Below are positions 1-15,061 of a stretch of DNA of 64,000 nucleotides, piece after piece; position 1 is the first letter of the stretch; each line of letters starts with the position of its first letter. A program made the position numbers and the translations under genes. The notes beneath the pieces are model-generated. The model was not told where the DNA came from, searched no databases, and saw only the letters and a list, made by a program, of their open reading frames with translations. Source of the stretch: Ignavibacteriota bacterium (GTDB lineage Bacteria; Bacteroidota; Ignavibacteria; Tepidaquicellales; Tepidaquicellaceae); the NCBI GenBank assembly GCA_026390735.1, contig JAPLFJ010000052.1:1-64000 (forward strand), written 5' to 3'.

Positions 1-183
1 TACAAAATCTGCATATTCTTTCCATTTAAAATACTTTTTAATTTTTGTATGGTAAAACCAAATGTCAAACCAATCAGCTGGCATATATATTTTCCACATA
101 TACATTTTTTTGTATGAAATAACCCCAAAGTTATATATCCCTGGTTTCATTTGAAGTTTATCTACGATAAGAAATGTTCTCAT
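1..183 (-). CDS. Hypothetical protein, 3' part missing (runs off the window)
   Basis: An open frame starts at the ATG whose complement is at 181-183 and stays open to the left edge, giving 61 residues with no stop. The peptide begins MRTFLIVDKLQMKPGIYNFG and is rich in Tyr, Trp and Lys. It has no signal peptide and no motif I recognise. It lies in the same direction as the two secreted-protein genes to its right, about 50 bp away, so it may be co-transcribed with them. The start is uncertain because no clear Shine-Dalgarno sequence is visible. Confidence 0.45.
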   Translation of the reverse strand, partial: MRTFLIVDKLQMKPGIYNFGVISYKKMYMWKIYMPADWFDIWFYHTKIKKYFKWKEYADFV

Positions 184-234
184 AATATTAAATATGGGTT
201 ATTGTAGTATGTAAAGGTAATCACTCTCATTTGT

Positions 235-546
235 CTAATACCTAAATATTCGTAGTTTTTGTTCTATGCCACCTTCCATGCAAACAGTAAAATCATTCCA
301 TCCCTTTTTAACGTTTAAGATTATCTGATGCCAACCCGTACTTTCGTAGAATTTTTGTGCTAACATAATCCATCCATGGCTGGGAGAAGAAGTCCAAACG
401 GTTACAGTCTCGCTTACTTCGAGTGTTTTTACTTTTATAACGGCATGATTGGAAGTTACAATATTAGTATCGAGTTGCACTTCTCGTTGAGCGTAAACAC
501 ACACTGAAGTGATTAGCAGTATTATTAAAACTAATATAGTTTTCAT
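235..546 (-). CDS. Small secreted hypothetical protein
   Basis: The 103-residue protein starts with a clear Sec signal peptide (basic MK, then hydrophobic residues 4-16, probable cleavage after the Ala at 19). The mature part of about 83 residues alternates hydrophobic and polar residues in a beta-rich pattern, with several Trp residues, like a small extracellular beta-sandwich. I do not recognise a family. It lies 16 bp downstream of the TPR protein gene on the same strand, so the two are probably one transcript and both act in the periplasm or outer envelope. Function is unknown. Confidence 0.6.
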   Translation of the reverse strand: MKTILVLIILLITSVCVYAQREVQLDTNIVTSNHAVIKVKTLEVSETVTVWTSSPSHGWIMLAQKFYESTGWHQIILNVKKGWNDFTVCMEGGIEQKLRIFRY

Positions 547-562
547 CTTTATCTATTTATTA

Positions 563-2026
563 TTATAATTTCGATTTAGCCAGTTTAATGGCAGGGGCCA
601 AACTCTCTTTTAACGAAGAATCGATTTCTGTTGCTTTCTCTAAATCTGAAAGAGCTTTGTCGAATTTTCCCTGTTTAATGTATATATAACCTCTGATAGT
701 AAACGCAGTTGAATTATGTGGGTATATAGTTAAGGCTTTATTAATCGTTTCAAGTGCTTTTTTTAAATTGTTTAATTCAAAATATGCACCGGCTAAATTT
801 GAATATATTATAGCTGTATTATAATCTTCATGTTCAAATTTACTTAGCGCTATATTATATTGATTAATTGCTCTATCATAATCCTTTAATTTATAATACG
901 CCCTTCCTTTCATTTTATAATAAGTAGTAATTGTTACATTATTTGTCTCAAATTGAGTTTGAACGATTTCATCAGGGTTTATTTCGTCTAATAAATGTAA
1001 ATAATAATTAGGTAACAATTCTACTAAATCACTATGCGTATATATTATTTCCTTAGCATATCCGTTTTCAATAGAATTATTTAAGAATTTATATTTGTAA
1101 TTAATTAAATCAAAGTATACTTGATAATATAATTCAGCACTGTTAAATTCTTTTACTTTTAAATAATCTCTAGCAATAATATTAATTAGCTCTATACAAA
1201 AGGGATTGTTTAAGTTTAATGATTTACCAGCATCTATAGCTTTTTGATAATATCCTTCGTTTTCAAATCTATGAATATCTTTAATGTCTGCACTAATATT
1301 GGAATTTTCCCCAGCACACTCATTTATTGAGAATGAATTTTCAATAAGATATCTTGAGGCTTCAGTATTTTGAAGTCTTAGTGCTCGTAAAAATGCATAA
1401 AAAGCTGTAGTGTATTGTTTTTTTTCCAAATAACATAATCCTGTTGCCATAAATACTTCGCCTTTCTTTAAATCATATGTCCTAAACCAATCATCGGCGT
1501 TACCTGTCAATTCCTTTAAATAATATAGCGCTTTATCATAGTTGTTCATTCGAAGGTAAGATAATGCTTTATAGTTGTTATATAGAGCATTATCTTCTGG
1601 TATATTTTCCAATACTTTATCGTAATTACCAGTATTATAGTAAGCTAAAAGAATATTTTCTAACAAATAATATTTCCTACCTCCTCCATAATCAAAACAT
1701 GGATTAGTATTAAGGTCATATTTCACATCCTCAAAACTACAAGTAGCGGTATTATAGTATCCAACCTTTGCCTCGTTAAAATTATTAAACATATTATCGT
1801 AATCCCCAATTTCAAAATATATCAAACCTCGAAAAACATAAAATTCTCTACTGGAAGGTGAGGCTATAATAGCTTTGTTAATATTTTCAATTGCACTTGA
1901 AAAGTTTTTTGAAAACATCTCGGTTTTTGCTTTTATAAAAAAGGAATATGAATCTTGAGCCAATATAGATTGAATATTGAGTGATAATAAGAATAAAACA
2001 ATTAATGTTAAGAATCGTTTTTTCAT
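563..2026 (-). CDS. Secreted tetratricopeptide-repeat protein
   Basis: The 487-residue protein has an N-terminal signal peptide (MKKRFL, then a hydrophobic stretch ending near residue 23). Helical TPR-like repeats follow. The first covers about residues 27-95 and more degenerate ones lie in the middle. Three well-formed repeats occupy about 365-480, with the usual small-residue and Tyr/Ala pattern such as YYKMKGRAYYKLKDYDRAIN. TPR proteins are protein-binding scaffolds, and the ligand here is unknown. The ATG is preceded by a GGAG about 8 bp upstream, which supports this start. The gene heads a leftward group of envelope proteins next to the mobile element; whether it is element cargo or chromosome is not clear. 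Confidence 0.75.
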   Translation of the reverse strand: MKKRFLTLIVLFLLSLNIQSILAQDSYSFFIKAKTEMFSKNFSSAIENINKAIIASPSSREFYVFRGLIYFEIGDYDNMFNNFNEAKVGYYNTATCSFEDVKYDLNTNPCFDYGGGRKYYLLENILLAYYNTGNYDKVLENIPEDNALYNNYKALSYLRMNNYDKALYYLKELTGNADDWFRTYDLKKGEVFMATGLCYLEKKQYTTAFYAFLRALRLQNTEASRYLIENSFSINECAGENSNISADIKDIHRFENEGYYQKAIDAGKSLNLNNPFCIELINIIARDYLKVKEFNSAELYYQVYFDLINYKYKFLNNSIENGYAKEIIYTHSDLVELLPNYYLHLLDEINPDEIVQTQFETNNVTITTYYKMKGRAYYKLKDYDRAINQYNIALSKFEHEDYNTAIIYSNLAGAYFELNNLKKALETINKALTIYPHNSTAFTIRGYIYIKQGKFDKALSDLEKATEIDSSLKESLAPAIKLAKSKL

Positions 2027-2080
2027 AATGTCTCCAATAATTATTAAATTTGTGATATAATATTAATAGAAAATAAAAAA

Positions 2081-2216
2081 GGAGCTGCAAACCTCAAAGC
2101 ATACTATAGTCCACTGGGGTGGCATCAAGACATGCGATGAGGCGCAGCTCCATTATTGGAGATGCAGCCCCATGCTATGTTCGTCTTGATTTAAAAACTC
2201 CCCAGTTTCTATAGAG
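2081..2216. repeat. Large folded palindrome with competing stems
   Basis: GGAGCTGC at 2081-2088 is matched by its exact complement at 2144-2151, and CCTC at 2092-2095 by GAGG at 2139-2142. A second pair of arms crosses these: ACTGGGG at 2113-2119 with CCCCAGT at 2200-2206, and ATCAAGAC at 2124-2131 with GTCTTGAT at 2183-2190. CTCC-GGAG (2148-2161) forms an inner hairpin. The two sets of stems interleave, so the segment would form either alternative folds or a pseudoknot. It may be a structured RNA, an origin or transfer structure, or a non-autonomous IS200/IS605-like end; no transposase is nearby. Confidence 0.55.
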
Positions 2217-2432
2217 AACAGTAGATGTTGCTACTTCTTAAAATCTTATGTAAAGAACGATAACCTCTTGTAATGAAAATGAGATTATTAATTTCCTGTA
2301 AAGTAATAAGTTTAGAGAAATATAAAAATGTAATTTATTTTAAGGTATAATAATTTTGAGGGTGGAGATACTCTTGGTTTTTTATTTGTGGAGGGGGAAG
2401 TTTTATTAGTTGGGTCAAAAACGCCCCGAATA

Positions 2433-2650
2433 AAAAGTCCAGTTAAGTGGACTTTTATTAATTAATTTTAGGACGTTAATTATAAAAGTCCAGTTAAATG
2501 GACGTATTATTAAAGGAATGTTTGATTTATAGTTCGTTTTAGCAGTTATTAAAAAACAATGATATCAACAATAGTGTAAGCGTAGAAAGTTGTCCGAAAA
2601 AGTGGACTTTCTGGAAGTTGTTGAAAACATAAGTCTACTTTTTTGGACTT
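2433..2650. repeat. Cluster of AAAGTCCA/TGGACTTT inverted repeats
   Basis: AAAAGTCCA-6 bp-TGGACTTTT forms a perfect inverted repeat at 2433-2456. A second copy with a nearly identical spacer follows 51 bp later at 2484-2503. Two looser copies built from GTCC/GGAC arms lie at 2585-2612 and 2631-2650. Repeated dyads of one sequence within 220 bp suggest binding sites for a dimeric regulator or initiator. No partner protein can be assigned from sequence. Confidence 0.55.
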
Positions 2651-3083
2651 TCCTGTTGTTTAAGTATTAGTTATTGATTATCAGTAAATTAGTAGATGTG
2701 AATGCCTCTATAATGGCTCTATTAGCTATTTAGAAGACCATGGCGGGCATTTAATAATCTGACCTATAGGAAGGATACCCCTTTTTTTGTAATTAACTAA
2801 AAAAGCTTAAAAACAGACTAGTTTTAGAACAAAATGAAAAATTAGTAAAAGTCTCCTTTTTAAAAAACTGAAATGGGAATATAGTAATGTAGAAAAAGGT
2901 AAAATCGTAAAATATTGCATTTACAGTCTTAAATAATCACTTTCTACTGTATACGGTACTTATGTTGTTTGTTAAGATAATTATTAATTTATTATAATAA
3001 GATATTAAATAAGAAATATAATAATAATAAAGTAATAAGATAAATAAGTAAAATAAATATGATAATATAAACAAATAGTACTA

Positions 3084-4442
3084 TTAAGCCACTTTTCGGT
3101 CGATCTTTACGTTAAACTCATTTTTTATAATATTCTGATATGCTGCCGACATAACGGTCTTTAATTCAGCTTCATGTACCCGGTCTATTATAAAGCTGTC
3201 ATGAATACATAAAATCATGATTCCTCTGTCTGTAAAGTGTTTAATCACCTTTTCAGCTATTTGAGAGTCCTTATACATTAAAGACAACCCAATATTAGTA
3301 CAAAGGTACTTACTGATAGGTTCATGTACTACAAGCCAATGGTCAAGCATCTTAGCAATATCACCATGAGGTATATCCCTTGGGTTATCTTCATCTTCTA
3401 ATAAATCATCCCTTAGTGCCCTAACCGTCCCATCTTCAGTTTTCGCATTAATCGACATCAATCCCAGACCTTTAAATAGTCCTCTTTCCCTGTATTTCAC
3501 GTCCTCATACGAAGTAGCAGCAATCGCGTACGGGTCATCCTGATAGTCAAGGTTCTCCATATTATAAAGCATCCTAATGTGCATAGCCTGGAAATCCAAT
3601 TCGACTGTAGGTGCGTTATTGATCTTAAAATAAGGCCTGTACTGTTTCTTTAATAAGGTTTCTGTAGTAGCCGAATATCTCCCGAACTTTTCAAATGTTT
3701 CTCTGAAAACCCTATACCCACCCTTAGGTCGCACAAATAAATGTACGTGGTCTTGCTCCATCTCTAAATTACAATAGTATTCAAGTCTCTCCCTTGACTT
3801 GTCTTGTTGATATACCTCAATCGGAGCATCAATAGTAATCAAAGTCTTATACCTGAGGGCATTCCATTCTTTAACAATCGCTCTCATAGCCTCCGTGTTT
3901 GAATTATCCTGGTAATCCAACATTACGTCAACCTCTCGTTCTGTTTCTTCTCCGGTCCTTTTATTCTTAACAATCACGATAGTAGTTTCTCGAAGTTGTA
4001 TTTCCTCAGGCGGTAATCGATTCTCAATAACCGACAAGTCAACATTCTTATAATAATCTAAGAGTTTTTGAGATGGGTGCATTTTTGTGGGATCTCTAAA
4101 GTTCAGCTTCATATCCCAAAAACCCTTAACTTGTTTAATGTATCCTTTCTCCAAAAGTGCATCAGCAACCTTTCTAACGAAATAATATGTCCGAAAGTAA
4201 TACCCATACCTAACCGGATGTTTATTATACCAATTGCTATTCCTTGAGTACCAAATTCCCTTTCCAGTCTTAGCTGATTCGAGTAAATTCATCAGTATAG
4301 TAATCAGGACTTCCTTCTTAGCTGATACTTTAAGTGTACCCAGTTCTAATTCATCATAAACAGTATCAACAAATGCTTTTATCTCAGCATTAGAACTTTT
4401 TTTGTACCACTTAATAAATTTAGGTTTTTTCTCAATTGACAT
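3084..4442 (-). CDS. Minimal family-A DNA polymerase (palm/fingers only)
   Basis: The C-terminal half of this 452-residue protein shows polymerase-I-type core motifs. Motif A is VELDFQAMHIRMLYN (280-294, metal-binding D283). A motif-B-like helix has R318 and K324. Motif C is LCIHDSFIID (411-420, H414-D415). The N-terminal 200 residues are not a recognisable 5' nuclease or 3'-5' exonuclease; residues 75-110 look like a winged helix. Full PolA is about 900 residues, so this is a stripped-down form of the kind seen on plasmids and phages. It probably copies the element from the adjacent repeats and Rep-like protein. The start ATG at 4440-4442 has no strong Shine-Dalgarno. Family assignment rests on motifs alone; activity and fidelity are unknown. 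Confidence 0.65.
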   Translation of the reverse strand: MSIEKKPKFIKWYKKSSNAEIKAFVDTVYDELELGTLKVSAKKEVLITILMNLLESAKTGKGIWYSRNSNWYNKHPVRYGYYFRTYYFVRKVADALLEKGYIKQVKGFWDMKLNFRDPTKMHPSQKLLDYYKNVDLSVIENRLPPEEIQLRETTIVIVKNKRTGEETEREVDVMLDYQDNSNTEAMRAIVKEWNALRYKTLITIDAPIEVYQQDKSRERLEYYCNLEMEQDHVHLFVRPKGGYRVFRETFEKFGRYSATTETLLKKQYRPYFKINNAPTVELDFQAMHIRMLYNMENLDYQDDPYAIAATSYEDVKYRERGLFKGLGLMSINAKTEDGTVRALRDDLLEDEDNPRDIPHGDIAKMLDHWLVVHEPISKYLCTNIGLSLMYKDSQIAEKVIKHFTDRGIMILCIHDSFIIDRVHEAELKTVMSAAYQNIIKNEFNVKIDRKVA

Positions 4443-4507
4443 ATATTTAAATTAATCGTTTACTAAACAAAGTTAAATGAAAGAGTTTTTGTATAAATTC
4501 CTTATTC

Positions 4508-4656
4508 AAGCTACTCCCAGGACATTCAAAAACGCGCCTACCCGTTTCTGTTAATATAAAGAGATTGTTTTAAGCAGTTATTTAAGCTACTCCCGGAATA
4601 TTCAAAAACGCGCCTACCCGTTTCTATTAATATAAAGAAATTGTTTTAAGCAGTTA
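4508..4656. repeat. 76-bp tandem direct repeat (two copies)
   Basis: Two copies with a period of exactly 76 bp (AAGCTACTCCC at 4508 and at 4584; AAGCAGTTA at 4572 and 4648) are nearly identical. Each begins with the AAGCTACTCCC core that recurs in the iteron array 300 bp away and contains a GC-rich ACGCGCCTACCCG segment. They lie just upstream of the polymerase start. Likely roles are extra Rep-binding sites or control of polymerase expression. Confidence 0.75.
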
Positions 4657-4766
4657 AACAAAAGCAACGTAGGTGGCGCGAACACCTAAAAGCGAAGAAC
4701 TAAAGAGCAACCCAAAATATCTCCTAAGCATGAAAAGAAAACAAATGAAAAAAGAACAAAAAACAC

Positions 4767-4783
4767 ACGCTTCGAAGAAGCGT
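4767..4783 (-). terminator. Hairpin terminator for the leftward rep operon
   Basis: ACGCTTC-GAA-GAAGCGT is a perfect 7-bp stem. Read on the minus strand it is followed by GTGTTTTTTG, as expected of an intrinsic terminator for genes 6763 to 5020. The iteron array would then lie in the 3' untranslated part of that transcript. Confidence 0.55.
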
Positions 4784-4893
4784 ATATTTATTATCTATTA
4801 TCTTTATATATGTTAAGATCTATTAGGAAAACTTCAAAGCGTCAAAACCCTTAACAGTATTGACTTTCGGCTAATTAGTACCTTCATATTTCT

Positions 4894-5017
4894 AAAGCTA
4901 CTCCCATATTATATTTAAGTAACTCCCATACTTTAGGCATTATTATTAAAGTAAGTCCCATATCATTTTTAAGTAGGTCCCATATACCCTCAAAATACAC
5001 TAAAGCTAGTCCCATGG
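4894..5017. repeat. Iteron array, five copies with 22/32/22/32-bp spacing
   Basis: Five imperfect copies of AAAGTANSTCCCATA occur in the same orientation. Their CCC cores are at 4903, 4925, 4957, 4979 and 5011. The spacings of 22, 32, 22 and 32 bp are near two and three helical turns and make a 54-bp higher-order unit. The array starts 3 bp after the end of the Rep-like gene. Iterons at such spacing are typical of plasmid origins and of copy control. That it is an origin is an inference; the repeats themselves are plain in the sequence. Confidence 0.75.
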
Positions 5018-5019
5018 TA

Positions 5020-5997
5020 TTAAGCTGCTTTTTTATAGTCCCAAAAGCTTTCAGGGTTATAATGTCTAGATTCCTTTCCATAATTCATTAAGTTATTTAA
5101 GATGTCAAATTCTTCAGGTGTTTGAGGAACTCCATCTCCTGCGCACCAACGTTTAGTCATAATTGATTTATACTTTTTACTGTAGTATATAATTGAAATA
5201 TCCTTCCCATCACGACATTTACCAAACCCAATAAAATAATCAGGCACTTTTTCAGTTTCGGATTGACTTGTAAGCGGCGGCTGAATAATTGGCTTGGTCT
5301 CAACCGGTAGGCAGACTTCTGGTTTTGTAAACCAATGTTTCTCAGGGTCGAATATTTCTTTGTTTATGGTAAATATCTTCCCCGGCTTAACTTTAATGTA
5401 ACCGGTATTATTTAAAACACTCAACAGAACCTTTAATACTTTATGGTCGCCACCCAATAATTTTACAAGGGATGTTTGAGTTAAACTGGATTCCAAAAGT
5501 GGCTCTTTAATGAGCAGGCAATGTCGATTACGTGCCATCAGGTAATAAAACACCTTCAGACACTTTATGATGAGTCTCTTATTTTTGCCAGTAGGAAGAA
5601 TCACCCTTTTTATTTGTAACAGTAAATCTTTATAGTCGTCTCTATACAATTGTATAAAGTCAGGATACTTTGTGGCTTCTTCAATATCAACTTTACGGAA
5701 CTTAGTTAAATATACACTCTCATCTACTAGTTGATACTTTCTTTTCTTCTTTATTAACAGCCCCGTTGTCTCCAATTCTTTTAATGCTTCATAAATTGTT
5801 ACTGGAGTGGTAGCATAATAATCGGCCATAGTGTTAACATCTACCGTAAATGTCTTATATGGCGCTTTGTCTAAATTGTAATTGTATTTAAGTTTTATTG
5901 AAACGTAAAGCCAGGGTGTATACCCTGATTTAAATACATCGTAATCATCGAAAAGGAATTCTGGTTTTATTTGAACGTGGTAATCGTCTTTTTTCAT
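5020..5997 (-). CDS. Winged-helix replication-initiator-like protein
   Basis: The 325-residue protein has a winged-helix-like segment at about residues 45-85 (MADYYATTPVTIYEALKELE followed by a basic wing) and a second at about 140-210 (LTQTSLVKLLGG then LNNTGYIKV). Two winged helices in tandem are the layout of iteron-binding plasmid initiators. The C-terminal 100 residues are Pro-rich, then hydrophilic. It has no nuclease or ATPase motif. The gene ends 3 bp before the iteron array and is followed by the polymerase, which strongly suggests replication. Alternatively it is a transcription regulator of the same fold. Sequence similarity to a named Rep family was not recognised. Confidence 0.5.
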   Translation of the reverse strand: MKKDDYHVQIKPEFLFDDYDVFKSGYTPWLYVSIKLKYNYNLDKAPYKTFTVDVNTMADYYATTPVTIYEALKELETTGLLIKKKRKYQLVDESVYLTKFRKVDIEEATKYPDFIQLYRDDYKDLLLQIKRVILPTGKNKRLIIKCLKVFYYLMARNRHCLLIKEPLLESSLTQTSLVKLLGGDHKVLKVLLSVLNNTGYIKVKPGKIFTINKEIFDPEKHWFTKPEVCLPVETKPIIQPPLTSQSETEKVPDYFIGFGKCRDGKDISIIYYSKKYKSIMTKRWCAGDGVPQTPEEFDILNNLMNYGKESRHYNPESFWDYKKAA

Positions 5998-6016
5998 AAT
6001 TGTAAGTTTTTAGTTA

Positions 6017-6553
6017 TTAGTTGTTATTTGGTTTATTGTAATAGTTAAAAGGTATTTCACTGGAATACACTACGTATCCAAGCTCCGGGTCGAATGAGTG
6101 TATGTAGTAATCGTTATAAACGAGTATTGGTTTAGTCATCTTATGTTCCGGTTTTACATATTCTGTTATCTCTATCATACGATACCTGACAAGCTCCCTG
6201 AAGGACTTTCTTAAAACTGATCTACATATTCCGGTTTCATAGTGCATCTTGTTCAAGTTAAAGTCTTGAGATAACGCTATCCTATAATAGTATGGCATTT
6301 CAGCCAAATCCATGAACCTGACTTTGCTCTTTAATATCAGGTAAAGGTAAAAGCTAAAGTAACATTTAAAGGGTATCTCATAAAGCACAGGAGAATACTC
6401 AATTTGGTATTTTTCATAAATAGCTTTGAGTTTAGCGTTGTTAAAATGACTCAAGCCTTTTTTCTTAAAGTGCTTTTGTTTCTTTCGAAGCCCTCTTCTG
6501 AGGGCCTCTTCAAGAATTTCTTTCTGTTCGATATTTAATGGGATATTCTGCAT
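6017..6553 (-). CDS. Hypothetical protein with winged-helix-like centre
   Basis: The protein has 178 residues, with a strongly basic N-terminus (RRGLRKKQKHFKKKGL at about 18-33). The segment YETGICRSVLRKSFRELVRYRMIEI at about 105-130 resembles a helix-turn-helix plus wing, like the neighbour at 5020-5997. The upstream stop TAA directly abuts its ATG, and 19 bp separate it from the downstream Rep-like gene, so the three genes form one leftward operon. An accessory DNA-binding factor for replication or its control is a reasonable guess. I do not recognise the family. Confidence 0.5.
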   Translation of the reverse strand: MQNIPLNIEQKEILEEALRRGLRKKQKHFKKKGLSHFNNAKLKAIYEKYQIEYSPVLYEIPFKCYFSFYLYLILKSKVRFMDLAEMPYYYRIALSQDFNLNKMHYETGICRSVLRKSFRELVRYRMIEITEYVKPEHKMTKPILVYNDYYIHSFDPELGYVVYSSEIPFNYYNKPNNN

Positions 6554-6763
6554 TTACATTAAGCCGTTATCTTCCCATTCTAAACATTTCTCGATGAATT
6601 CTAAAACTTCATCAAGTATTTTAAAATAGAAATGCGTTATGAAGTAAGGTCTATACTTATCAAGCACTACTTTAAGGTCTCTAAGGAAGCCAGTTCCCAT
6701 ATGGCGAATTTCATCGTCTGTCATCTCGGTTAAATCAACCGATTCTTGGTTTCTTCTAATCAT
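6554..6763 (-). CDS. Small acidic hypothetical protein
   Basis: The protein has 69 residues and is first in the leftward operon; its stop codon abuts the next start (TAAATG). It is acidic and helical, with an N-terminal VDLTEMTDDEIRHMG segment and a C-terminal helix ending EFIEKCLEWEDNG. There is no signal or known motif. The position suggests a replication or copy-control accessory, but function is unknown. Confidence 0.45.
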   Translation of the reverse strand: MIRRNQESVDLTEMTDDEIRHMGTGFLRDLKVVLDKYRPYFITHFYFKILDEVLEFIEKCLEWEDNGLM

Positions 6764-6977
6764 TGTTAAAAGGGTTTAGTATTTGTAAAAAGCGTTTATT
6801 ATTTGTAAATAAGATTTGAAACAAATGTATGCAAATGCATAAAAGCGTTTACTTTTCTTACTTACTTTAAATTAGCATTTGACAAACAAGTGGCAAAACG
6901 AAAATGAATTGTTAACCTGAGATTTCTTGTATTTAATTTAAACTGAATTATTGCGATATTAGAAAAAATAATAAACT
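6764..6977. promoter_or_regulatory. Divergent control region between replication and cargo genes
   Basis: This 214-bp gap serves two divergent transcription units. It contains the inverted repeat TATGCA-AA-TGCATA at 6828-6841. There are also two direct copies of AAAAGCGTTTA (about 6788 and 6842) and two of ATTTGTAAA (about 6781 and 6801). Such repeats are typical operators. The regulator could be the protein encoded at 6978 or one of the leftward winged-helix proteins. No clean sigma-70 boxes stand out. Confidence 0.45.
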
Positions 6978-7880
6978 ATGACAGAGAAACAGGAAGAATT
7001 CAAAACAGAAGAGGAATTTATTCAAGCCTTGAAAGAAGAAGTGCAAAAGTTAGACCCCGATGAAATCGAAAAGAAATATAGCGTTTTTGATACAAGTGTA
7101 GCAAATTATAATCTCTATGTAGAAAACGCTCAGTTTATTGTAAAATACAGATTAAATTTGGAAGCGAAGGATGACAATTATAAAGAATTAAATTTACTAA
7201 CTGAATTATCCTTTGAGTTAATTAGAGCAATTCGAGGTTGCTCCAAGGCTTTAATTAATCATATATCATTGACGAACTACATGTATAAACCTATGCATTT
7301 ACTTGGCCTTGAAAAGTATGATTATGATAAAGTGGCATCAGATAATTTAAGTGATAATATTAACGAAATGCTTGAAAACATTAAACCAATATTTAAATAT
7401 TTAAATAAGAAGGTCAAGACTCAATACAAGGATCTTGAAAACAAGGTGGAGGAATCCGAGTTTAAAGATAAGATAATTCGCAGAAAAAGTAGGGATTTAG
7501 ATAATTTTAAAACAACAGATGATAAACGAACTGACTACGCAGAAATATTTATAAAAGTATTAAGGGGTTCCAAAAGGATGCCTACAATGAAAGCTTTAGA
7601 AATAGCATCTCATGGAAAAATATCCAAAAGCACTTGGTCTAGAAAGATGCATCACACAGAAGTACTTGATAAGATTTGTACAAAATTAAATGCTATGATT
7701 AAAGAAGATTCAAGAATTAAAAATGATGACCGTATAGACTTCTATAATGCTATTTATGAAAAATTAAATGACAGGTATAATTTAATGGTTATTCCAAAAT
7801 TAGACATCGAAAAAGTGCGAGAAAAAGCACTTCAAATAAAATCTGGTTATATTTCAGGTAATTCCCAAAACGAAGATTAA
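6978..7880 (+). CDS. Hypothetical protein with possible C-terminal HTH
   Basis: The protein has 300 residues, is highly charged and mostly helical, and has no signal or membrane segment. The N-terminal 30 residues are Glu/Lys-rich. Residues about 195-230 (MKALEIASHGKISKSTWSRK) look like a helix-turn-helix. The family is not recognised. It is the first plus-strand gene, divergent from the replication operon across a repeat-rich control region, so a regulator of the element is plausible. Low GC matches the surrounding element. Confidence 0.45.
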   Translation: MTEKQEEFKTEEEFIQALKEEVQKLDPDEIEKKYSVFDTSVANYNLYVENAQFIVKYRLNLEAKDDNYKELNLLTELSFELIRAIRGCSKALINHISLTNYMYKPMHLLGLEKYDYDKVASDNLSDNINEMLENIKPIFKYLNKKVKTQYKDLENKVEESEFKDKIIRRKSRDLDNFKTTDDKRTDYAEIFIKVLRGSKRMPTMKALEIASHGKISKSTWSRKMHHTEVLDKICTKLNAMIKEDSRIKNDDRIDFYNAIYEKLNDRYNLMVIPKLDIEKVREKALQIKSGYISGNSQNED

Positions 7881-8137
7881 TTACACCTAAAATAGTTTAT
7901 TTTCTTTATCTACTATGAAGTAAATTAAATTACTTTCCTATAAACAATTCCAAATATTACATTTAAAACTCCGTATTTATTTCTACTACTGACATAACTT
8001 TGAAATAAAGCCCTTACTATATCTATATGTAAAATCAATATATTAACCTCGTATGGATTCTGTATTTATATCCATCGGTGCAATAAAATGATACCTCGAA
8101 GGACATTTTTGTCCATAAATTAATCTAAATAAAGATT
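7881..8137. promoter_or_regulatory. Upstream region of the sigma-54 activator gene
   Basis: This is a 257-bp AT-rich gap. It contains GGAC-ATTTTT-GTCC, an inverted repeat at 8101-8114, 23 bp before the activator ATG. Its arms are the same GTCC/GGAC core as in the dyads at 2433-2650. It could be an operator. I saw no -24/-12 element here. Confidence 0.3.
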
Positions 8138-9181
8138 ATGGAGATTTGTAAAAAAGAGGTTGAAGAGAAAAACAATTTAGCAAGGATTATAGAATTATGC
8201 AAGAACTATCCATCGTTCAAACTAGCATTAAATGTTGCTCGTATCGATAAGCTATCAGTTCTTCTAACCGGTGAGTCTGGAACAGGGAAAGAGATCCATG
8301 CTTATTATATCCACCAGAATTCTCCGAGAGCAAACAAACCGTTCAAGACAATAAATGCGTCTGCATTTCCAGAGAACTTACTTGAATCAGAATTATTCGG
8401 ACATGTAAAAGGTGCTTATACTGGCGCACATAACAAACGTGACGGTTTATTTAAAGAAGCCGATGGGGGCACAATATTTCTCGATGAAATAGGAGATATC
8501 TCCTTAACCACTCAAATCAAATTATTAAGAACTTTACAAAGTGGGGAAATAAAAGCAGTTGGAAGTGATAAAGTAGAATACGTTGATGTCAGGATTATTA
8601 CTGCAACAAATGTAAACTTATTCGAAAAAATATCCAGCGGAAAATTCAGAGAAGACTTCTATCATAGACTTCGTCAAACTGCAATAAATATTCCCCCATT
8701 TAGAGAGAAGTCAGAGGAAGAAAAAAGGAAATCGATTAATTTCATTTTACACAGTAAAGCAGAAGAGTTAAAATTAAATGAGATAAAACTTTCTGAACAT
8801 GTTTTGCAGGTAATTTTAAAACATAAATTTGAAGGGAACTACAGAGAGTTAGAAAATATAATTAATGAATTATACGTAAAAGTAGTAAATAATATTGAGA
8901 TTGATGATGTACTGGAAATAACTAACAATTACTATTCTCCATCGGGCACAGTAAGTAATTCACTTAAAAATTCAGACAAGACACATGACTACTTTATCCC
9001 TATGACATTAGACGAACATATAATGGCAGCTGTACATAATACTATTATTGAATGTGAAGGGAACAAGAATGCAGCTGCAAGAAAATTAATAATGGACATT
9101 AAGACGCTAAACAGATGGAATAAAAAATACATGAACAGGGTAAGCCTTATTAACACTATAGGAAAAAATACTATTGGATAG
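8138..9181 (+). CDS. Stand-alone sigma-54 activator (AAA+ ATPase with C-terminal HTH)
   Basis: The 347-residue protein is a bacterial enhancer-binding protein without a receiver or sensor domain, like PspF. Walker A is GESGTGKE (45-52). The sigma-54 contact loop is GAYTGA (92-97), a Tyr variant of GAFTGA. Walker B is GGTIFLDE (110-117), sensor I is ATN (156-158), arginine-finger residues lie in FREDFYHRL (170-178), and sensor II is GNYRELEN (233-240). A Fis-like helix-turn-helix lies at about 294-331. Such proteins hydrolyse ATP to remodel the sigma-54 holoenzyme at -24/-12 promoters. A -24/-12-like element sits just downstream, before the next gene. No regulatory input domain is present, so control may come from a partner protein or from expression level. 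Confidence 0.88.
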   Translation: MEICKKEVEEKNNLARIIELCKNYPSFKLALNVARIDKLSVLLTGESGTGKEIHAYYIHQNSPRANKPFKTINASAFPENLLESELFGHVKGAYTGAHNKRDGLFKEADGGTIFLDEIGDISLTTQIKLLRTLQSGEIKAVGSDKVEYVDVRIITATNVNLFEKISSGKFREDFYHRLRQTAINIPPFREKSEEEKRKSINFILHSKAEELKLNEIKLSEHVLQVILKHKFEGNYRELENIINELYVKVVNNIEIDDVLEITNNYYSPSGTVSNSLKNSDKTHDYFIPMTLDEHIMAAVHNTIIECEGNKNAAARKLIMDIKTLNRWNKKYMNRVSLINTIGKNTIG

Positions 9182-9203
9182 GAAAAAAGGGAGTAGGGGA
9201 AAA

Positions 9204-9359
9204 ATGAAAATGCATAAATTGATTTACAATTACAGATTTATTGTGGCACAAGAATTGACTGTATTAATAACAAAAATAGAAAAGGTAGATAACATATCTA
9301 CCAACTTTATTTATAAACTATCCTGGGCAGCCCCCAGGGGAAAGGAGTCAATAAAATGA
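9204..9359 (+). CDS. Possible 51-aa leader ORF, stop overlapping next start
   Basis: An ATG at 9204 preceded by GGGAG/GGGG opens a 51-residue frame beginning MKMHKLIYNYRF. It ends at a TGA that overlaps the next gene's start (ATGA), a classic translational-coupling arrangement. It covers the same DNA as the sigma-54-like element and two hairpins, so either the ORF or those regulatory elements may be chance. The peptide shows no motif. Confidence 0.25.
   Translation: MKMHKLIYNYRFIVAQELTVLITKIEKVDNISTNFIYKLSWAAPRGKESIK
9244..9258 (+). promoter_or_regulatory. Sigma-54-type -24/-12 promoter candidate
   Basis: TGGCAC at 9244-9249 and TTGA at 9255-9258 are separated by 5 bp. The GG and GA dinucleotides are 10 bp apart, the required -24/-12 geometry. 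The only departure from the consensus is GA in place of GC at -12. It lies 63 bp after the stop of a sigma-54 activator and about 100 bp before the ClpP-like gene. Transcription would start near 9270. Confidence 0.5.
9284..9338 (+). promoter_or_regulatory. Two leader hairpins before the ClpP-like gene
   Basis: GGTAGAT-AACAT-ATCTACC (9284-9302) is a perfect 7-bp stem. CCTGGG-CAGCC-CCCAGG (9322-9338) is a perfect 6-bp stem. The second ends 2 bp before the Shine-Dalgarno AAAGGAG (9341-9347) and could mask it or protect the 5' end of the mRNA. Confidence 0.5.
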
Positions 9360-9886
9360 CACCAACAAAAAATATTGATGTGAAAGACATCAACGCAGAT
9401 TCGGTATCTGAGATAAAAAAAGCCGAAGGGGAAGCTATAGCAAACGGTAGTAATACCGTTAGGTTGAACTTCCAAGCAGCGAAAGGAGAAATCCCGGTGG
9501 GGATATTCTTGTTGGATGATATGCATAAATCTCCGGTTGATTTCACCACACATGCAAGTGGTGAGCTAACTCTCGCATCAATACTTCTGTTAGCGGGCGG
9601 GAAATTTGGCGAAAGAAGCGCTGATGCATCAGCAACCTTCAATTTATTTGAAGACAGTAAAAAAGCTGAGAAAAAAAGAAAAACGTTAACAGCCAGCGAG
9701 AAGAATTCACTGGAAATTTTAGACAAACTTTCCTGCGGACGCAAGGCCAGAATTAAAGCTTTCATGCTTTCTGGTTCAAAAGCAACGGCCGCTGAAATGG
9801 TTTCTTTAGGACTGATCGATAAAACCGAAGGCGGATTTGTCGATAAATTTGCGCAGGCAAGAATTGATGCCAAAAAGAAAAAATAA
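9356..9886 (+). CDS. Degenerate ClpP/crotonase-like protein
   Basis: This is a 176-residue cytoplasmic protein. Residues 34-58 read like the first beta-alpha units of ClpP, ending FLLDDM. Residues 62-81 (VDFTTHASGELTLASILLLAG) align by eye with the ClpP segment around the catalytic Ser, but Thr72 or a neighbour replaces the Ser. The His of the usual MIHQ segment is absent (ATFNLFE, 93-99). The tail ATAAEMVSLGLIDK (143-156) matches the SAEEAxxxGLID signature of ClpP and crotonases. The likely reading is a non-proteolytic member of the fold that binds rather than cuts. The start is fixed by AAAGGAG 9 bp upstream. The fold call is mine and unverified. Confidence 0.45.
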   Translation: MTPTKNIDVKDINADSVSEIKKAEGEAIANGSNTVRLNFQAAKGEIPVGIFLLDDMHKSPVDFTTHASGELTLASILLLAGGKFGERSADASATFNLFEDSKKAEKKRKTLTASEKNSLEILDKLSCGRKARIKAFMLSGSKATAAEMVSLGLIDKTEGGFVDKFAQARIDAKKKK

Positions 9887-9899
9887 GAGGAGATGGATT

Positions 9900-9997
9900 G
9901 CAGAGCAGGTTTTTTACTGCTCTGCTTTCTTATTAATTATGAACAATCACAATCACATATTGACGAAGATTACAGAGTGGGTTAAACCCTGCTCTGT
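9900..9997 (+). terminator. Tandem hairpins between ClpP-like and Hsp90-like genes
   Basis: GCAGAGCAG-8 nt-CTGCTCTGC (9900-9925) is a perfect 9-bp stem followed by TTTCTT, a good intrinsic terminator. A related hairpin, ACAGAG..CTCTGT with an inner GGG/CCC, follows at 9972-9997 and is trailed by ATTCTT. The two copies look like a duplication. They may attenuate read-through and set the ratio of the two proteins. A 30-codon frame from ATG 9893 spans them, but its Shine-Dalgarno is too close. Confidence 0.55.
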
Positions 9998-10016
9998 ATT
10001 CTTAATAATAATACTT

Positions 10017-11843
10017 ATGGGAATACAATTTAATGTATCTCCAATGATTCTGAAATCTATTGCATCACTTTACAACACACCACCTAGAGTGATACATGAA
10101 AACGTCTCGAATTCATTCGATGCTGCGGAAATCTTTTTCGATGAAAAAAGCAATGGGTACACAAAGCCGATAGAGATAACGGTAACGATTGATGGTAAAT
10201 CGCATGACTACGCAAGAATTATTATACACGACAATGCAACAGGCATAAGCGACTTATCGCATTTGATTACGAGCATTGGACTCTCATCGAAATTGAATGA
10301 TGATAAATCTTCCGGCAGGTTTGCGGTTGGTATTTATAGCTTCATGGCCATCTGTGACAGACTTATTATTACTACACGTTTAAGTAATTCAAATGAAATA
10401 AAACGTTTAGAATTAAATTCTGACATGTTTGATGCCGGAAGTCCAGGCGTTCTGGAAGAGGTAACGAATATAAGCGGTTATACACTAGCGGAAAAAAGAG
10501 AAGATTGTTGGAGTAGATTTATACTTGATGGTTTTAGTAAGCAGTCATTTAAAGAACTAAATGCTAAAACCTTAAAATACGATATAGAGAAACATTTCGA
10601 ACTTATCTTGAATCGTAAAAACATTACTGTTAAAATAATAGACGATAACAAGAAAGAACACATCTGTAAGGCTTTCAACTACGACAGTATTGAAGGAGGT
10701 GAATTCAAACGTGAACTTACTCAGCTCTCAGTTACAAAGAGCAAGAAGTTCAAATCAAAAGAAATAATTCAAATTCCGAACAAAGTTGTAGTATACTTAA
10801 AAGTATCAAAAGGAAGAGTACTCGACAGAAAACCAGTCTTTATAGAAAAAGGCAGGAGAATTGTCGAGATATCAGATGTAAAAGCATTCAGGACTTATTC
10901 AAAGGGCTCTATATGGTCACATCCTAACGTAACTGGCTTTGTAGATGTTACGGGAGTGTTAGAGCCTAAGATATCACGGGATGACTTCAAACCGAGTGTG
11001 ATGGAGAAGGCTTTATTCCAAGCACTTGTAGAACTCGAACCGGAAATAAAAGAGTTCATAACCAGCCAACTTAGCCTGCCTTCATCAAGTGAATACAGTA
11101 ACCTGGAAAAATACTTAACCAAGACATTAAATAAATTAACTAAAAAAAGGAGGTTTCATGACTTAATTAAATTAGAAGCAGGTACTGATTTATTATCTGA
11201 CGAAAACAACGGTACCAAAGAAAGAAAAGAAGAGTTGACACTAAAGGCACCTAAAAGAGTAAAGAACTTGGATGGTGACACATTAGAAGCTCACCAAGGT
11301 CAACGTGGAGATAACACCGATAATACATCTGAAGAATCAGCGAAAGAAGACAACACATCTAAAACGGACACAAATGTACCACCAAATAACACAAATGTGG
11401 AAATAAAAGATGTAAAAGTTGAAATCATTCATCCGACAAAAGGTGATTCAGATGACACCACAGATAAAAACTCCAGGCAGGTAAAAAACAAGATGGAAGG
11501 TCTAAATATCCTAATCGAGAGCGAGAACGACCCTCCACTTGATAAAAACAACAACCCGCTGCGGTCGAACATGATTAACAGACAAATCATTATTTATAAG
11601 AATCATCCTCTGTTTGTTGAAAGAGTTCGCAGCAACGACCTCGGTGTACAAACAATAAGCAACGAACTGATATTCTACATAGCAATAGAAGTAATGACTC
11701 AAATAAAGACAATGGTCTACAATGAACTAAAAAAAGACTTACCTGACATTGGTTCGTTCTTCAACACCTTCGGAGAGAGCGTATATCTCTTCGCTAAAGA
11801 GCTGTCTGCACTCGAAGGTAAAAACTTAAATGAAATATCTTAA
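10017..11843 (+). CDS. Hsp90-type GHKL ATPase
   Basis: The N-terminal Bergerat fold is clear in this 608-residue protein. The N box is HENVSNSFDAA with E28, N32 and D35 spaced exactly as in Hsp90. The G1 box is HDNATGI (71-77). The G2 box is GRFAVGIYSFMAICD (100-114), close to the Hsp90 GFYS loop. A transducer-like middle domain follows to about 390. A hydrophilic Asp/Thr/Asn-rich linker lies at about 410-490, then a C-terminal helical domain. Hsp90, MutL, MORC and conflict-system ATPases share this core; the domain after it is not one I can name. The frame is open upstream to 9837, but that part crosses two hairpins, so the ATG at 10017 is preferred. ATG 9939 is the alternative. Confidence 0.8.
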   Translation: MGIQFNVSPMILKSIASLYNTPPRVIHENVSNSFDAAEIFFDEKSNGYTKPIEITVTIDGKSHDYARIIIHDNATGISDLSHLITSIGLSSKLNDDKSSGRFAVGIYSFMAICDRLIITTRLSNSNEIKRLELNSDMFDAGSPGVLEEVTNISGYTLAEKREDCWSRFILDGFSKQSFKELNAKTLKYDIEKHFELILNRKNITVKIIDDNKKEHICKAFNYDSIEGGEFKRELTQLSVTKSKKFKSKEIIQIPNKVVVYLKVSKGRVLDRKPVFIEKGRRIVEISDVKAFRTYSKGSIWSHPNVTGFVDVTGVLEPKISRDDFKPSVMEKALFQALVELEPEIKEFITSQLSLPSSSEYSNLEKYLTKTLNKLTKKRRFHDLIKLEAGTDLLSDENNGTKERKEELTLKAPKRVKNLDGDTLEAHQGQRGDNTDNTSEESAKEDNTSKTDTNVPPNNTNVEIKDVKVEIIHPTKGDSDDTTDKNSRQVKNKMEGLNILIESENDPPLDKNNNPLRSNMINRQIIIYKNHPLFVERVRSNDLGVQTISNELIFYIAIEVMTQIKTMVYNELKKDLPDIGSFFNTFGESVYLFAKELSALEGKNLNEIS

Positions 11844-11845
11844 AA

Positions 11846-11935
11846 ATGAAAAAAGCTACAATTGAAATAAGAAATAAAGATGTAACCAGCGAAGCGTTGG
11901 AAGTAGAATTTAAAAAATTAGATGAAAGGATATAA
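11846..11935 (+). CDS. Possible 29-aa micro-ORF
   Basis: ATG at 11846, 2 bp after the previous stop, opens a 29-codon frame (begins MKKATIEIRNKDVTSEALEV) with a regular amphipathic pattern and a stop at 11933-11935. Its position, packed between the ATPase and the methyltransferase, argues for translation. The length is too short for a family call. Confidence 0.35.
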   Translation: MKKATIEIRNKDVTSEALEVEFKKLDERI

Positions 11936-11953
11936 AATTATGAGGTTAAACAA

Positions 11954-12427
11954 GTGGGAAAAGCAATAGTAAAAAATAACGGTAACGATAAAATAATGAC
12001 TCCTCCGTATTTAGCGGAGAAGATTGTTAATCATTTCCGTCCAAATGGAAAAATTTTAGAGCCTTGTTGTGGAACAGGAGCATTTTTAAAGTACTTACCA
12101 AATGCTGATTACTGTGAAATAGACAAGGGTCTAGATTTTTTAAAGGTAACGGGTAAATGGGATTGGATAATAACAAACCCACCATATTCAAAGTATAGGG
12201 ACTTCTTAATAAAATCCCTGGAAGTAGCAGACAATGTTGTATTCTTACAGTTAATAAATGCAACATTCTATAAAGCACGTTTGCGTGATATTTCCACAAA
12301 CAATTTCGGCATTAAAGAAATGTACTTTATAGATACTCCTAAAGAATTTCCACAATTCGGTTTTCAACTGGGGTGTGTTTATTATAAAAGAGATTATAAA
12401 GGTAATATTAATCTTGCCTCAAGTTAA
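11954..12427 (+). CDS. DNA adenine methyltransferase (NPPY), solitary
   Basis: The 157-residue protein has SAM-binding motif I as EPCCGTGAF (36-44) and catalytic motif IV as NPPY (75-78), preceded by WDWIIT. It resembles phage-type N6-adenine methyltransferases with very little target-recognition sequence. No endonuclease gene is adjacent, so it is an orphan. It may protect the element or mark its origin. The GTG start is supported by GAGGT 6 bp upstream; the in-phase ATG at 11940 is in another frame and stops quickly. Confidence 0.8.
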   Translation: MGKAIVKNNGNDKIMTPPYLAEKIVNHFRPNGKILEPCCGTGAFLKYLPNADYCEIDKGLDFLKVTGKWDWIITNPPYSKYRDFLIKSLEVADNVVFLQLINATFYKARLRDISTNNFGIKEMYFIDTPKEFPQFGFQLGCVYYKRDYKGNINLASS

Positions 12428-12431
12428 AACT

Positions 12432-12507
12432 TTGACAGACGCAATCAGAAAATATAATCTCGTATCACTCCCCCAAAGCGAGGAGGTCTTAGTACCTCCT
12501 TACTTTG
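12432..12507 (+). promoter_or_regulatory. Promoter-like motif plus hairpin, copy 1
   Basis: TTGACA (12432) and TATAAT (12453) are separated by 15 bp, somewhat short for sigma-70. A strong hairpin follows: AGGAGGT-CTTAGT-ACCTCCT (12481-12500), extended by CAAAG/CTTTG. The same TTGACAGAC..AAAATATAA block followed by a GGAGG/CCTCC hairpin recurs at 13301. The hairpin contains an anti-Shine-Dalgarno-like arm. Confidence 0.45.
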
Positions 12508-12576
12508 AGGATATTGTACAAATGAATTTAATAAGAAAACATTAAACAACGTATTTAAAAAACTAAACGTAAAACA

Positions 12577-13287: not shown

Positions 13288-13300
13288 TGGCATAATATCA

Positions 13301-13379: not shown

Positions 13380-13473
13380 ATTGTAAATACGAAATCCTCA
13401 CATGTGAACTTGCAGGTAAACATTCAGCTAAAATAATGGCATAATATACTTGAATAAGAAAAAGGAAAATATT

Positions 13474-13830
13474 ATGCAAACTTCAAGCATCTCTGTAGGC
13501 TCTAATAGTTCAGAGGGCATTAGATTATTACAACCACAGAGCTTTCTTCACAGTGAAGGTTACGGTGAATTAGCTTTGCTTTCAAAAAGGAAAGCAAGAA
13601 CCGAACTTAGAATTGGAAATGACAGTTTAAACGAACTCATCAAGAAAGGAGAAATAAAAACCACGCGAATTAACAAGAGAGACAAAATCCCTTATGTAAG
13701 TATTCAGGAATACATTAACAAAGTCAGTTCGGAAAGAGTACCTGAATTTGATAAATATGAAAATGATAACGAAGATGATTCTATTGCTATGGCAAACAAA
13801 ATCATTCAAGATATCTTAAAAGGAGGTTAA
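13474..13830 (+). CDS. Excisionase-like HTH protein
   Basis: The 118-residue protein (from ATG 13474) has a MerR/Xis-type winged helix at about residues 36-85: LLSKRKARTELRIGNDSLNE, then LIKKGEIKTTRI and IPYVSIQEYIN. These are the helix, wing and second helix of the HTH_17 fold. The gene ends 1 bp before the integrase start, and the integrase Shine-Dalgarno lies within its last codons, so the pair is translationally linked. In this position it is probably a recombination directionality factor. A TTG at 13450 could also start it, but AAAGGAAAA sits better for 13474. Confidence 0.7.
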   Translation: MQTSSISVGSNSSEGIRLLQPQSFLHSEGYGELALLSKRKARTELRIGNDSLNELIKKGEIKTTRINKRDKIPYVSIQEYINKVSSERVPEFDKYENDNEDDSIAMANKIIQDILKGG

Positions 13831-13831
13831 A

Positions 13832-14974
13832 TTGCCACCAAATCTTATGAAAGTTAAAGGATGGATATACATCCAATACCGTGATGGACAAGTTAGAAGA
13901 ACAGTAAGCACAAAGCTTCGTGCAACTGAGGAAAACCTCAAAAAAGCAGAGGCTATGAAAAACGAGATTGCTAAAAAAGTTGAGATAAAGAAATCAGATT
14001 TAAAGTACAGAGATTTAATGAAGACAGTTGAGAGTAAAAATAGTATAAAAGATATCACTATCGAAAGGGCGGTTGAAATTTATAAACATAAACTGGCTTT
14101 AACATCTCATAGCTATCGCTACAGATTTGGTGTCGCCATGAATCACTTCTACAAAATTGTACCAGCGAATCAAAAAGTGAGTAAAGTGACATATGAACAT
14201 TCTTTACGTTTCGTTAAGTATTTAATCGATAGAAAATTAAGTAACGCTTCAATAAGAACATACTATGAACATGTAAAAGTGCTGTTCCTGTTTTTAGTAA
14301 AGCATAAACATTTATTAAGTTCGCCGTTGAACACAGAGGTATTGCCTAGAAAGACAAAGAAGACTATTATGCCTTTTGAGAAAAGTATGCGTGATGATAT
14401 TCTAATGGCGGCAAAAGAAGCGGATGTTACGTTTTTTAATATACTTGTGTTACTGCTTCTAACCGGATTAAGACCGATAGATTTACTGAAAATAAAAGTA
14501 AGAGATCTTAATTTTGCTCAGAAAATAATGTTCATTAAAATTTCCAAAACAGGTAAAGAGGCTTACAATCCAATGTCCAATCTTTTAATTAACTTTATGT
14601 CTAAAGAAATGAAATATATCATGGATTTAGATGGTGACCAATTAATATTTGAAGGTTATACAGTTCCAAGATTAGGTAGAAGATTTAGAAGACTTAAAAG
14701 TAGGCTAGGGATTAAAGAAAGATATGTCTGGACCCTGAAAACATTTAGAAAGTCCATCGGAACACATTACGCAGGATTCTTACCCATACAAGATGTTGCA
14801 TTACTTTTGAACCATGACGAAGTTGAGACTACCAGAGCATATTACGCCGCAACGTATATAGATAATGTAAGAAATAAAATGAATGAACTTGATGAGAGAA
14901 GTGATGATCCAAATTCTATCAGCATAACTTTAGCTAAACTCGACAATCTCGGAAACAAAAACCCCAATAAATAG
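13832..14974 (+). CDS. Tyrosine recombinase (integrase)
   Basis: The 380-residue phage-type integrase has an N-terminal arm-binding part (1-60), a SAM-like core-binding domain (about 75-170) and a catalytic domain. Catalytic residues visible are R214 in TGLRPIDLL, K239 or K242, R306, H328 in LLNHDEVETTRAYY, and nucleophile Y337. The usual HxxR motif reads K303-T-F-R306, a change seen in a minority of the family. The start is TTG with AGGAGG 5 bp upstream, an unusually good ribosome site for this region. It ends in a terminator and lies next to a tRNA fragment, as expected at the end of an integrated element. Confidence 0.9.
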   Translation: MPPNLMKVKGWIYIQYRDGQVRRTVSTKLRATEENLKKAEAMKNEIAKKVEIKKSDLKYRDLMKTVESKNSIKDITIERAVEIYKHKLALTSHSYRYRFGVAMNHFYKIVPANQKVSKVTYEHSLRFVKYLIDRKLSNASIRTYYEHVKVLFLFLVKHKHLLSSPLNTEVLPRKTKKTIMPFEKSMRDDILMAAKEADVTFFNILVLLLLTGLRPIDLLKIKVRDLNFAQKIMFIKISKTGKEAYNPMSNLLINFMSKEMKYIMDLDGDQLIFEGYTVPRLGRRFRRLKSRLGIKERYVWTLKTFRKSIGTHYAGFLPIQDVALLLNHDEVETTRAYYAATYIDNVRNKMNELDERSDDPNSISITLAKLDNLGNKNPNK

Positions 14975-14991
14975 CTGTATTTATTGGGGTT
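14960..14991 (+). terminator. Strong terminator overlapping the integrase stop
   Basis: AACCCCAATAAAT-AGCTGT-ATTTATTGGGGTT is a perfect 13-bp stem whose left arm contains the last integrase codons. It is followed by TATTTAATA. It marks the end of the plus-strand element genes. Confidence 0.8.
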
Positions 14992-15019: not shown

Positions 15020-15061
15020 TCGTCCCGAACGAAGCGCGCTACCGGACTGTGCTACATCCCG
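15020..15061 (-). pseudogene. 5' half of a proline tRNA (likely attachment-site remnant)
   Basis: On the minus strand the 42 nt begin CGGGATGTAGCACAGTCC. They continue with the D-loop GGTAGCGCG, the anticodon stem CTTCG and a loop with a CGG anticodon (tRNA-Pro), then break off after CGA. The T arm and acceptor 3' strand are absent. It sits 46 bp beyond the integrase stop, the classic place for an att site in a tRNA gene. The other half was not found to the left in this window. Confidence 0.55.

Follow-up and report, generated by a model that had tools for sequence, protein, structure and literature searches.

Polymerase-bearing elements and related families

Mobile elements that supply their own polymerase are already known, including pipolins and the SCCmec elements with CcPol-MP, and TV-Pol was proposed as a polymerase of this kind in 2008. 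The first-pass annotation, which called this arrangement unusual for a small integrated element, was therefore half right, since the arrangement has precedents.

TV-Pol was predicted to be a prim-pol of mobile elements (Iyer, Abhiman and Aravind 2008, PMC2579912). Its members resemble our polymerase (P0001) in size (400–600 aa), in having no nuclease, and in their hairpin Arg, two-Asp palm and fingers with an Asp and RxxxK. Their context is also alike: bacterial mobile elements, including those of Rhodobacterales and Bacteroidetes, with a lambda-type integrase or resolvase (PMC2579912). However, the TV-Pol N-terminal domain was predicted to be all-helical, whereas that of P0001 models as a winged helix (wH), and the TV-Pol thumb is a two-helix antiparallel coiled-coil, which was not recognised in P0001 (PMC2579912). 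A D5-like helicase is one of two published TV-Pol contexts and is not obligatory (PMC2579912).

divPolA2 is an additional polymerase of phages; its role is unknown but may lie in repair or RNA synthesis (Yutin et al. 2024, PMC11348598). As characterised in that paper's passages on the group, it shares with P0001 and its relatives a palm without an exonuclease, an unusual N-terminal domain and the presence of several copies per genome. Those passages describe it from tailed phages only, whereas the chromosomal sequences found here mostly lie apart in the tree and near an integrase at tRNA genes. The paper cites TV-Pol, and its passages on divPolA2 draw no link between the two.

CcPol of SCCmec, also counted as a TV-Pol, primes DNA in complex with MP and has a PolA-type palm (PMC7581432). 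Apart from this enzyme, counted among TV-Pols by Iyer et al., we found no TV-Pol biochemistry in the literature. The CcPol-MP/PolA-SSB systems and our locus each combine a family-A polymerase without working proofreading, an integrated element, a small partner protein and putative-origin repeats (PMC7581432, PMC10061031). The differences are that the PolA-SSB palm is close to housekeeping Pol I while P0001 lies beyond PF00476 (Bebel 2020, PMC7581432; Rice 2023, PMC10061031), that the PolA-SSB partner is an OB fold while the small protein here looks wH-like, and that PolA-SSB elements belong to Bacillota and encode a helicase (D5/COG3378 or DUF927) and, for the most part, serine recombinases, whereas a tyrosine integrase is found here (PMC7581432, PMC10061031).

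Pipolins have only their polymerase and att sites in common (Flament-Simon 2020, PMC7385651). They match our locus in plan, with tRNA-gene integration, att repeats, a tyrosine recombinase and variable cargo, but their polymerase, piPolB, is a primer-independent family-B enzyme, whereas the palm of P0001 is family A (PMC7385651). PolA1, PolA2 and PolA3, the three major bacterial groups, share the family-A palm (Timinskas 2026, PMC12926913). As described there, they have a 3'-5' exonuclease domain, active or inactivated, which P0001 lacks, and the passages on these groups mention no wH-palm protein of the P0001 kind.

Our favoured reading, which we hold at slightly better than even, is that P0001 is the element's low-fidelity primase-polymerase, acting after excision with a Rep-like protein at iterons.

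The polymerase gene and its motifs

The window (the whole 64,000-nucleotide stretch analysed, on contig C29) contains the following polymerase features:

3084..4442, minus strand: TV-Pol/divPolA2-type minimal family-A polymerase P0001, 452 aa (phrog_4756 match, model and conserved residues)
4020..4394, minus strand: N-terminal winged-helix-like domain, residues 17-141 (model of residues 1-240; weak fold matches)
3672..3716, minus strand: beta-hairpin 'GGRFY', residues 243-257, motif T equivalent (R255 in 90/92 relatives, R244 in 88/92)
3564..3602, minus strand: motif A, E281-x-D283 ... H288, residues 281-293 (D283 in 92/92, H288 in 90/92)
3447..3485, minus strand: motif B / fingers helix R320xxxK324...N332 (R320 in 91/92, K324 in 92/92, N332 in 90/92)
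3189..3206, minus strand: motif C, I-H414-D415-S416-F-I (D415 in 92/92, H414 in 91/92, S416 in 91/92)

P0001 has a match to phrog_4756 (E=1.5e-55), a family of phage proteins with no assigned function. It has no Pfam match, no PDB sequence match and nothing near the cut-off in NCBIfam, where matches to XopZ and a lysine-tRNA ligase were disregarded as far below it. Searching the host genome with PF00476 finds canonical Pol I only, and none of these three sequence searches (Pfam, NCBIfam, PDB) finds an exonuclease domain in P0001.

Residue conservation was counted over 92 non-redundant relatives. D283, D415 and K324 are present in all of them, which points to an active site under selection, and the fingers Asp D303 is kept in 86. 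When aligned by hhalign with a profile of the host Pol I and its relatives, the GGRFY hairpin pairs with TGRLSS and D283 with the motif-A Asp, a weak match (E=0.009) that is in register; hhalign runs that used T7 RNA polymerase or T7 DNA polymerase as a lone sequence were uninformative. An in-frame stop was seen in one relative (G010:C6); in L122 (9306-10619) an in-frame TAA interrupts a relative's polymerase gene, likely a decayed copy.

By motif spacing, the position of the PolA steric-gate Glu would be taken by His288 and that of Tyr766/Tyr639 by Asn332. The PolA residues replaced in this way set sugar choice, and the HDS of motif C is as in T7-type RNA polymerases. This combination (HDS, His288 and Asn332), read against established motif knowledge, suggests that P0001 is neither a typical DNA polymerase nor a typical RNA polymerase.

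The divPolA2 exemplar AUR84708, which has FDE in place of HDS, is homologous to P0001 from end to end (BLASTP E=3e-8; hhalign 99.6% over 357 columns). For TV-Pol, a profile search of the record of Ma-LMM01, a listed TV-Pol source, found nothing. One frame in it, a candidate for the published TV-Pol (L182:4750-6294), aligns with P0001 motif for motif (D+5=H, K+8=N, HD), though at E=0.012 this is suggestive only. P0001 shows most of the features that define TV-Pol, and it probably belongs to, or is closest to, that family. It is likely that divPolA2 and TV-Pol are one family.

Predicted structure

The AlphaFold2 model of P0001 has a mean pLDDT of 91.9 and a pTM of 0.90 (55 aligned sequences). 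Family-A DNA polymerases are the top VIA-align matches, led by the apicoplast DNA polymerase (Z 14.4, 254 residues, 4.0 Å) and followed by the Bst fragment (Z 13.6), T7 DNA polymerase (11.9) and Klenow (11.6). Foldseek agrees (apicoplast polymerase, E=5e-7). The model therefore indicates a family-A palm with its two conserved Asp residues, in motifs A and C, so that a missing palm, which the annotation gave as grounds for rejection, is not what is seen. The annotation's account of a 452-aa protein at 3084-4442 with motifs A, B and C and no exonuclease domain is borne out: the gene lies on the minus strand, and D283, R320/K324 and H414-D415 are where it had placed them and nearly invariant among the 92 relatives.

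N-terminal of the palm, the model has only a wH-like domain and a linker. Residues 1-240 folded separately give a pLDDT of 86 and no significant Foldseek match, and the best VIA rows for residues 17-141 are mostly wH proteins at weak scores (Z 5-6.3), so we assign this domain as a winged helix with moderate, not firm, confidence. The hairpin strands (243-247/249-257) are preceded by helices at 181-198, 208-212 and 217-223. A thumb was not recognised; its expected place is residues 145-240, a part of the model barely tested by fold searches. Without a recognisable thumb, processive synthesis is doubtful.

If the winged helix itself found the origin and the PolA palm started DNA without a primer, one protein would be initiator, primase and polymerase at once, and these would be widespread self-copying integrative elements, a family-A counterpart of pipolins. 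We regard this bolder version as rather unlikely.

A small single-subunit RNA polymerase, which would transcribe element or phage genes or make RNA primers only, seems distinctly unlikely. HDS and the absence of the PolA steric-gate Glu fit such an enzyme, mitochondrial RNA polymerases align at Z 11-12 (some over 365-385 residues, at 5.7-7 Å), and Yutin et al. (PMC11348598), in discussing divPolA2, leave RNA synthesis open. However, the palm scores higher with DNA polymerases (Z 14.4 vs 11.8), and two T7-type features are missing, i.e., by motif spacing H288 and N332 stand where motif A D-G-S and the motif B Tyr639 would be.

The host element

Downstream of the polymerase region, the element continues with the following features:

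9356..9886, plus strand: ClpP/SDH-protease-like protein (of the kind of cluster c6; by eye)
9837..11843, plus strand: GHKL-ATPase-domain protein c4 (PF13589, E=2.5e-6; recurs in related elements)
11954..12427, plus strand: DNA methyltransferase (phrog_799, E=2.5e-33)
13450..13830, plus strand: excisionase-like small protein c3 (weak TIGR01764 match)
13832..14974, plus strand: tyrosine integrase c1 (PF00589, E=2.6e-17)
15020..15061, minus strand: tRNA-Pro 5' half beside the integrase (presumed att site, right element end)
Other tRNA-Pro copies in this genome (G000): C30:47484-47506, C25:49630-49652, C14:99-121

Eleven elements carry a c3 member, in most cases immediately ahead of the integrase. 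Also inside the element (8138-9181) is a sigma-54-activator AAA protein without the usual sensor domain, which PADLOC places near RtcR-type CARF regulators.

The genome holds three copies of the polymerase: that of the window (C29), one on C30 (46% identical) and one on C25 (25% identical). Each is accompanied by an integrase and a tRNA-Pro copy at a distance of about 8-11 kb. The tRNA-Pro(CGG) at C25 is intact, whereas C29, C30 and C14 keep the 5' half only, cut in the anticodon loop; C14 is a fourth tRNA-Pro site, with an integrase and no polymerase. These four element ends may represent several elements stacked at one tRNA gene. Relatives from the same taxonomic family and order carry varying subsets of c10/c7, c5, c9, polymerase, c4, c3 and c1.

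In the window, the tRNA-Pro half is found at one end of the element only. Bases 1-60 match the final 60 bases of C30 in reverse complement, and bases 1-546 are 91% identical to C30, i.e., the assembly breaks in a repeat common to the start of C29 and the end of C30. Because C29 starts inside this repeat, the left end of the element was not placed; it lies beyond the contig, and the genes listed are the portion within it. The stretches 1900-3090 and 14900-15720 share no exact direct repeat of more than 11 nt, and Rfam found nothing in 1-16500.

Iterons and adjoining genes

The polymerase gene is flanked upstream by repeats and by a small gene cluster on the same strand:

4489..4640, no strand: 76-bp repeat in two tandem copies, on the upstream side of the gene
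4892..5020, no strand: iteron cluster of 21-nt repeats, spacing alternating at about 22/32
5020..5997, minus strand: Rep-like protein c9 (HTH match at residues 55-93; weak DnaD/Rep-like matches)
6017..6553, minus strand: small wH protein c5 (in several relatives, the next gene upstream of the polymerase)
6554..6763, minus strand: small conserved protein c10, same gene cluster

Six copies of the 21-nt repeat (core AAGTAxCTCCCATA) lie at 4505-5020, and a stretch of 90 bp (4895-4984) holds four of these. At up to two mismatches, the window holds five matches where 1.5 are expected, a count reached by one in 100 shuffles. The iterons that the annotation reported beside the polymerase gene are thus real. 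Its label for the neighbouring gene stands less securely: c9 does have HTH and DnaD/Rep-like matches, but those matches are weak and the sole basis of "Rep-like", and sequence searches gave c9 no PDB and no plasmid relative. Clear iteron arrays upstream of the polymerase gene were absent from nine relatives other than C25, so iterons are not a general feature. Downstream of the polymerase gene, palindrome-like repeats (AAGTCCAGTTAAGTGGACTT) occur at 2415-2525 and 2626-2651.

c5, which is adjacent to the polymerase in several relatives, shares its wH domain with c9 (hhalign 94%). An OB-fold partner of the CcPol kind was not identified, and c5 looks wH-like.

Exchange of the polymerase cassette

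The DNA flanking the polymerase gene is similar between C29 and C25, with 75% identity at 2350-2854 and 89-90% at 4470-5032 (counterparts in the C25 element: L116 8883-9345 and 11003-11489). The Rep-like proteins are 62% identical in amino acids, whereas the polymerases are 25% identical and have no nucleotide match. Similar flanks around dissimilar polymerases indicate that the polymerase gene was replaced in place between two elements of one genome.

The conserved part includes the iterons, while the polymerase was swapped, which favours the Rep-like protein as the putative iteron binder: judging from this one pair (C29/C25), it is probably the Rep-like protein that the iterons serve. The polymerase itself was considered as the binder, a possibility weakened by iterons that stay while the polymerase changes.

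Distribution

Relatives were found at 53 loci in viral contigs (profile A1; scanning with the single protein found nothing) and at 38 loci in bacterial genomes (profile A2, which is narrower). The latter are chiefly in Rhodobacterales and SAR116 Alphaproteobacteria, with others in Bacteroidota, Desulfovibrio, Desulfuromonas, Dehalococcoidia, Marinimicrobia and one gammaproteobacterium. There were also 118 phage records, mostly of Vibrio and Aeromonas phages, and the genes among the matches listed are annotated as hypothetical. In a tree of the 92 relatives, 40 of the 42 cellular sequences fall within one branch of 44 (SH-aLRT 86), though long branches leave the details of this tree unsure. One viral contig (L051) has three polymerase copies of equal score and length (1849-3117, 6508-7776 and 9855-11123), each with an integrase fragment, which is either a tandem repeat or an assembly artefact.

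Delimited integrase-polymerase elements

At 22 of the 35 loci in genomes, a c1-type integrase is no more than 10 kb from the polymerase, and at 16 no more than 5 kb; for comparison, integrase matches number 14 in the 4.0 Mb of the host genome, a density that may differ in other hosts. Using ARAGORN and a direct-repeat search, we delimited eleven elements (5-15 kb) with tRNA-derived direct repeats (18-77 bp) at their ends, each enclosing an integrase and a polymerase:

L091: 4.98 kb, 41 bp repeat, tRNA-Arg (smallest, four genes)
L083: 8.6 kb, 77 bp repeat, tRNA-Gly
L104: 8.4 kb, 18 bp repeat, tRNA-Ser
L078: 9.1 kb, 22 bp repeat, tRNA-Gln
L079: 9.9 kb, 72 bp repeat, tRNA-Gln
L099: 8.5 kb, 18 bp repeat, tRNA-Gln
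L088: 12.1 kb, 73 bp repeat, tRNA-Val
L089: 11.4 kb, 67 bp repeat, tRNA-Val
L090: 12.0 kb, 57 bp repeat, tRNA-Val
L085: 15.1 kb, 45 bp repeat, tRNA-Val
L105: 12.0 kb, 47 bp repeat, tRNA-Thr

The weakest cases are those with 18-bp repeats (L104 and L099). Among the 25 commonest families listed for 107 neighbour proteins, the integrase was the only clear recurrent one. Pfam found no helicase, primase or initiator in ten scanned proteins, nine of them from L091, L083 and L104, and a D5-like helicase was seen neither among the proteins scanned from these three elements nor among the recurrent neighbours listed. The scanned proteins include a resolvase, an OLD/AbiEii-like ATPase, a methylase (L079) and surface-protein domains. 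Among the proteins compared, the eleven elements appear to have only the integrase and the polymerase in common. The annotation's interpretation thus holds in part: the minimal family-A palm keeps its catalytic residues in the motif register, and the association with integrase-bearing integrated elements is clear, while a replicative role for the polymerase is the favoured reading.

An accessory repair, gap-filling or translesion polymerase, which would help the element or phage and leave the start of replication to others, is also an improbable account. It would suit a protein with no proofreading domain and no recognised thumb. In large phages, moreover, the relatives are extra, sometimes duplicated genes in variable places and neighbourhoods, beside a regular replicase, which fits a repair or other accessory role and counts against a primase-polymerase. 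However, the integrase-polymerase pair keeps recurring, even in an element of four genes, and an optional repair gene should often have dropped out there.

Proposed function

The primase-polymerase reading builds on the palm fold, the conserved catalytic residues, the divPolA2 homology, the linkage to integrase and tRNA repeats, and the absence of a helicase, primase or initiator from the proteins scanned in L091, L083 and L104. For it we also count three precedents: priming by CcPol-MP, the pipolin plan and the TV-Pol prediction. Counted against it, besides the phage copies, are the unrecognised thumb, the lack of an identified OB-fold partner, the His288/Asn332 substitutions, the RNA-polymerase-like HDS and the part of the window element that lies beyond the contig. 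The element would most likely follow a pipolin-like plan built on a PolA palm. The integrase and excisionase would release it as a circle, and the Rep-like protein (5020-5997) would bind the iterons at 4892-5020 and open the DNA. The polymerase would then start and extend DNA on the exposed single strand, host enzymes would finish replication, and the element would re-integrate.

A defence or counter-defence enzyme, e.g., one making untemplated DNA like the AbiA/AbiK reverse transcriptases, is very unlikely. Its patchy presence (11 of 395 genomes of the host phylum), the quick diversification and cassette-like swapping of the polymerase, and the defence-like cargo of several elements are what one might expect of such an enzyme, but PADLOC gives no match for P0001, two marks of template-dependent family-A polymerases, the hairpin Arg and the RxxxK of the fingers, are conserved, and phages themselves carry the polymerase. 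A non-enzymatic winged-helix DNA-binding regulator with a retained palm fold, for which the in-frame stop at G010:C6 and the FDE of AUR84708 could be cited, is highly improbable given that both D283 and D415 are kept in 92/92 relatives.

Significance

The family was already known. What is new is the probable winged helix, the tRNA-bounded integrase-polymerase elements, the exchange of polymerase cassettes and the likely unity of divPolA2 and TV-Pol, and also the setting of the polymerase, an element with a tyrosine integrase that ends at half a tRNA-Pro and occurs three times in the genome. The results suggest that a phage group named in 2024 and a family proposed in 2008 are one, and a polymerase gene has been seen replaced in situ between related elements within one genome. 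With delimited elements down to 4.98 kb and four genes, the 2008 prediction that TV-Pol is a prim-pol becomes directly testable.
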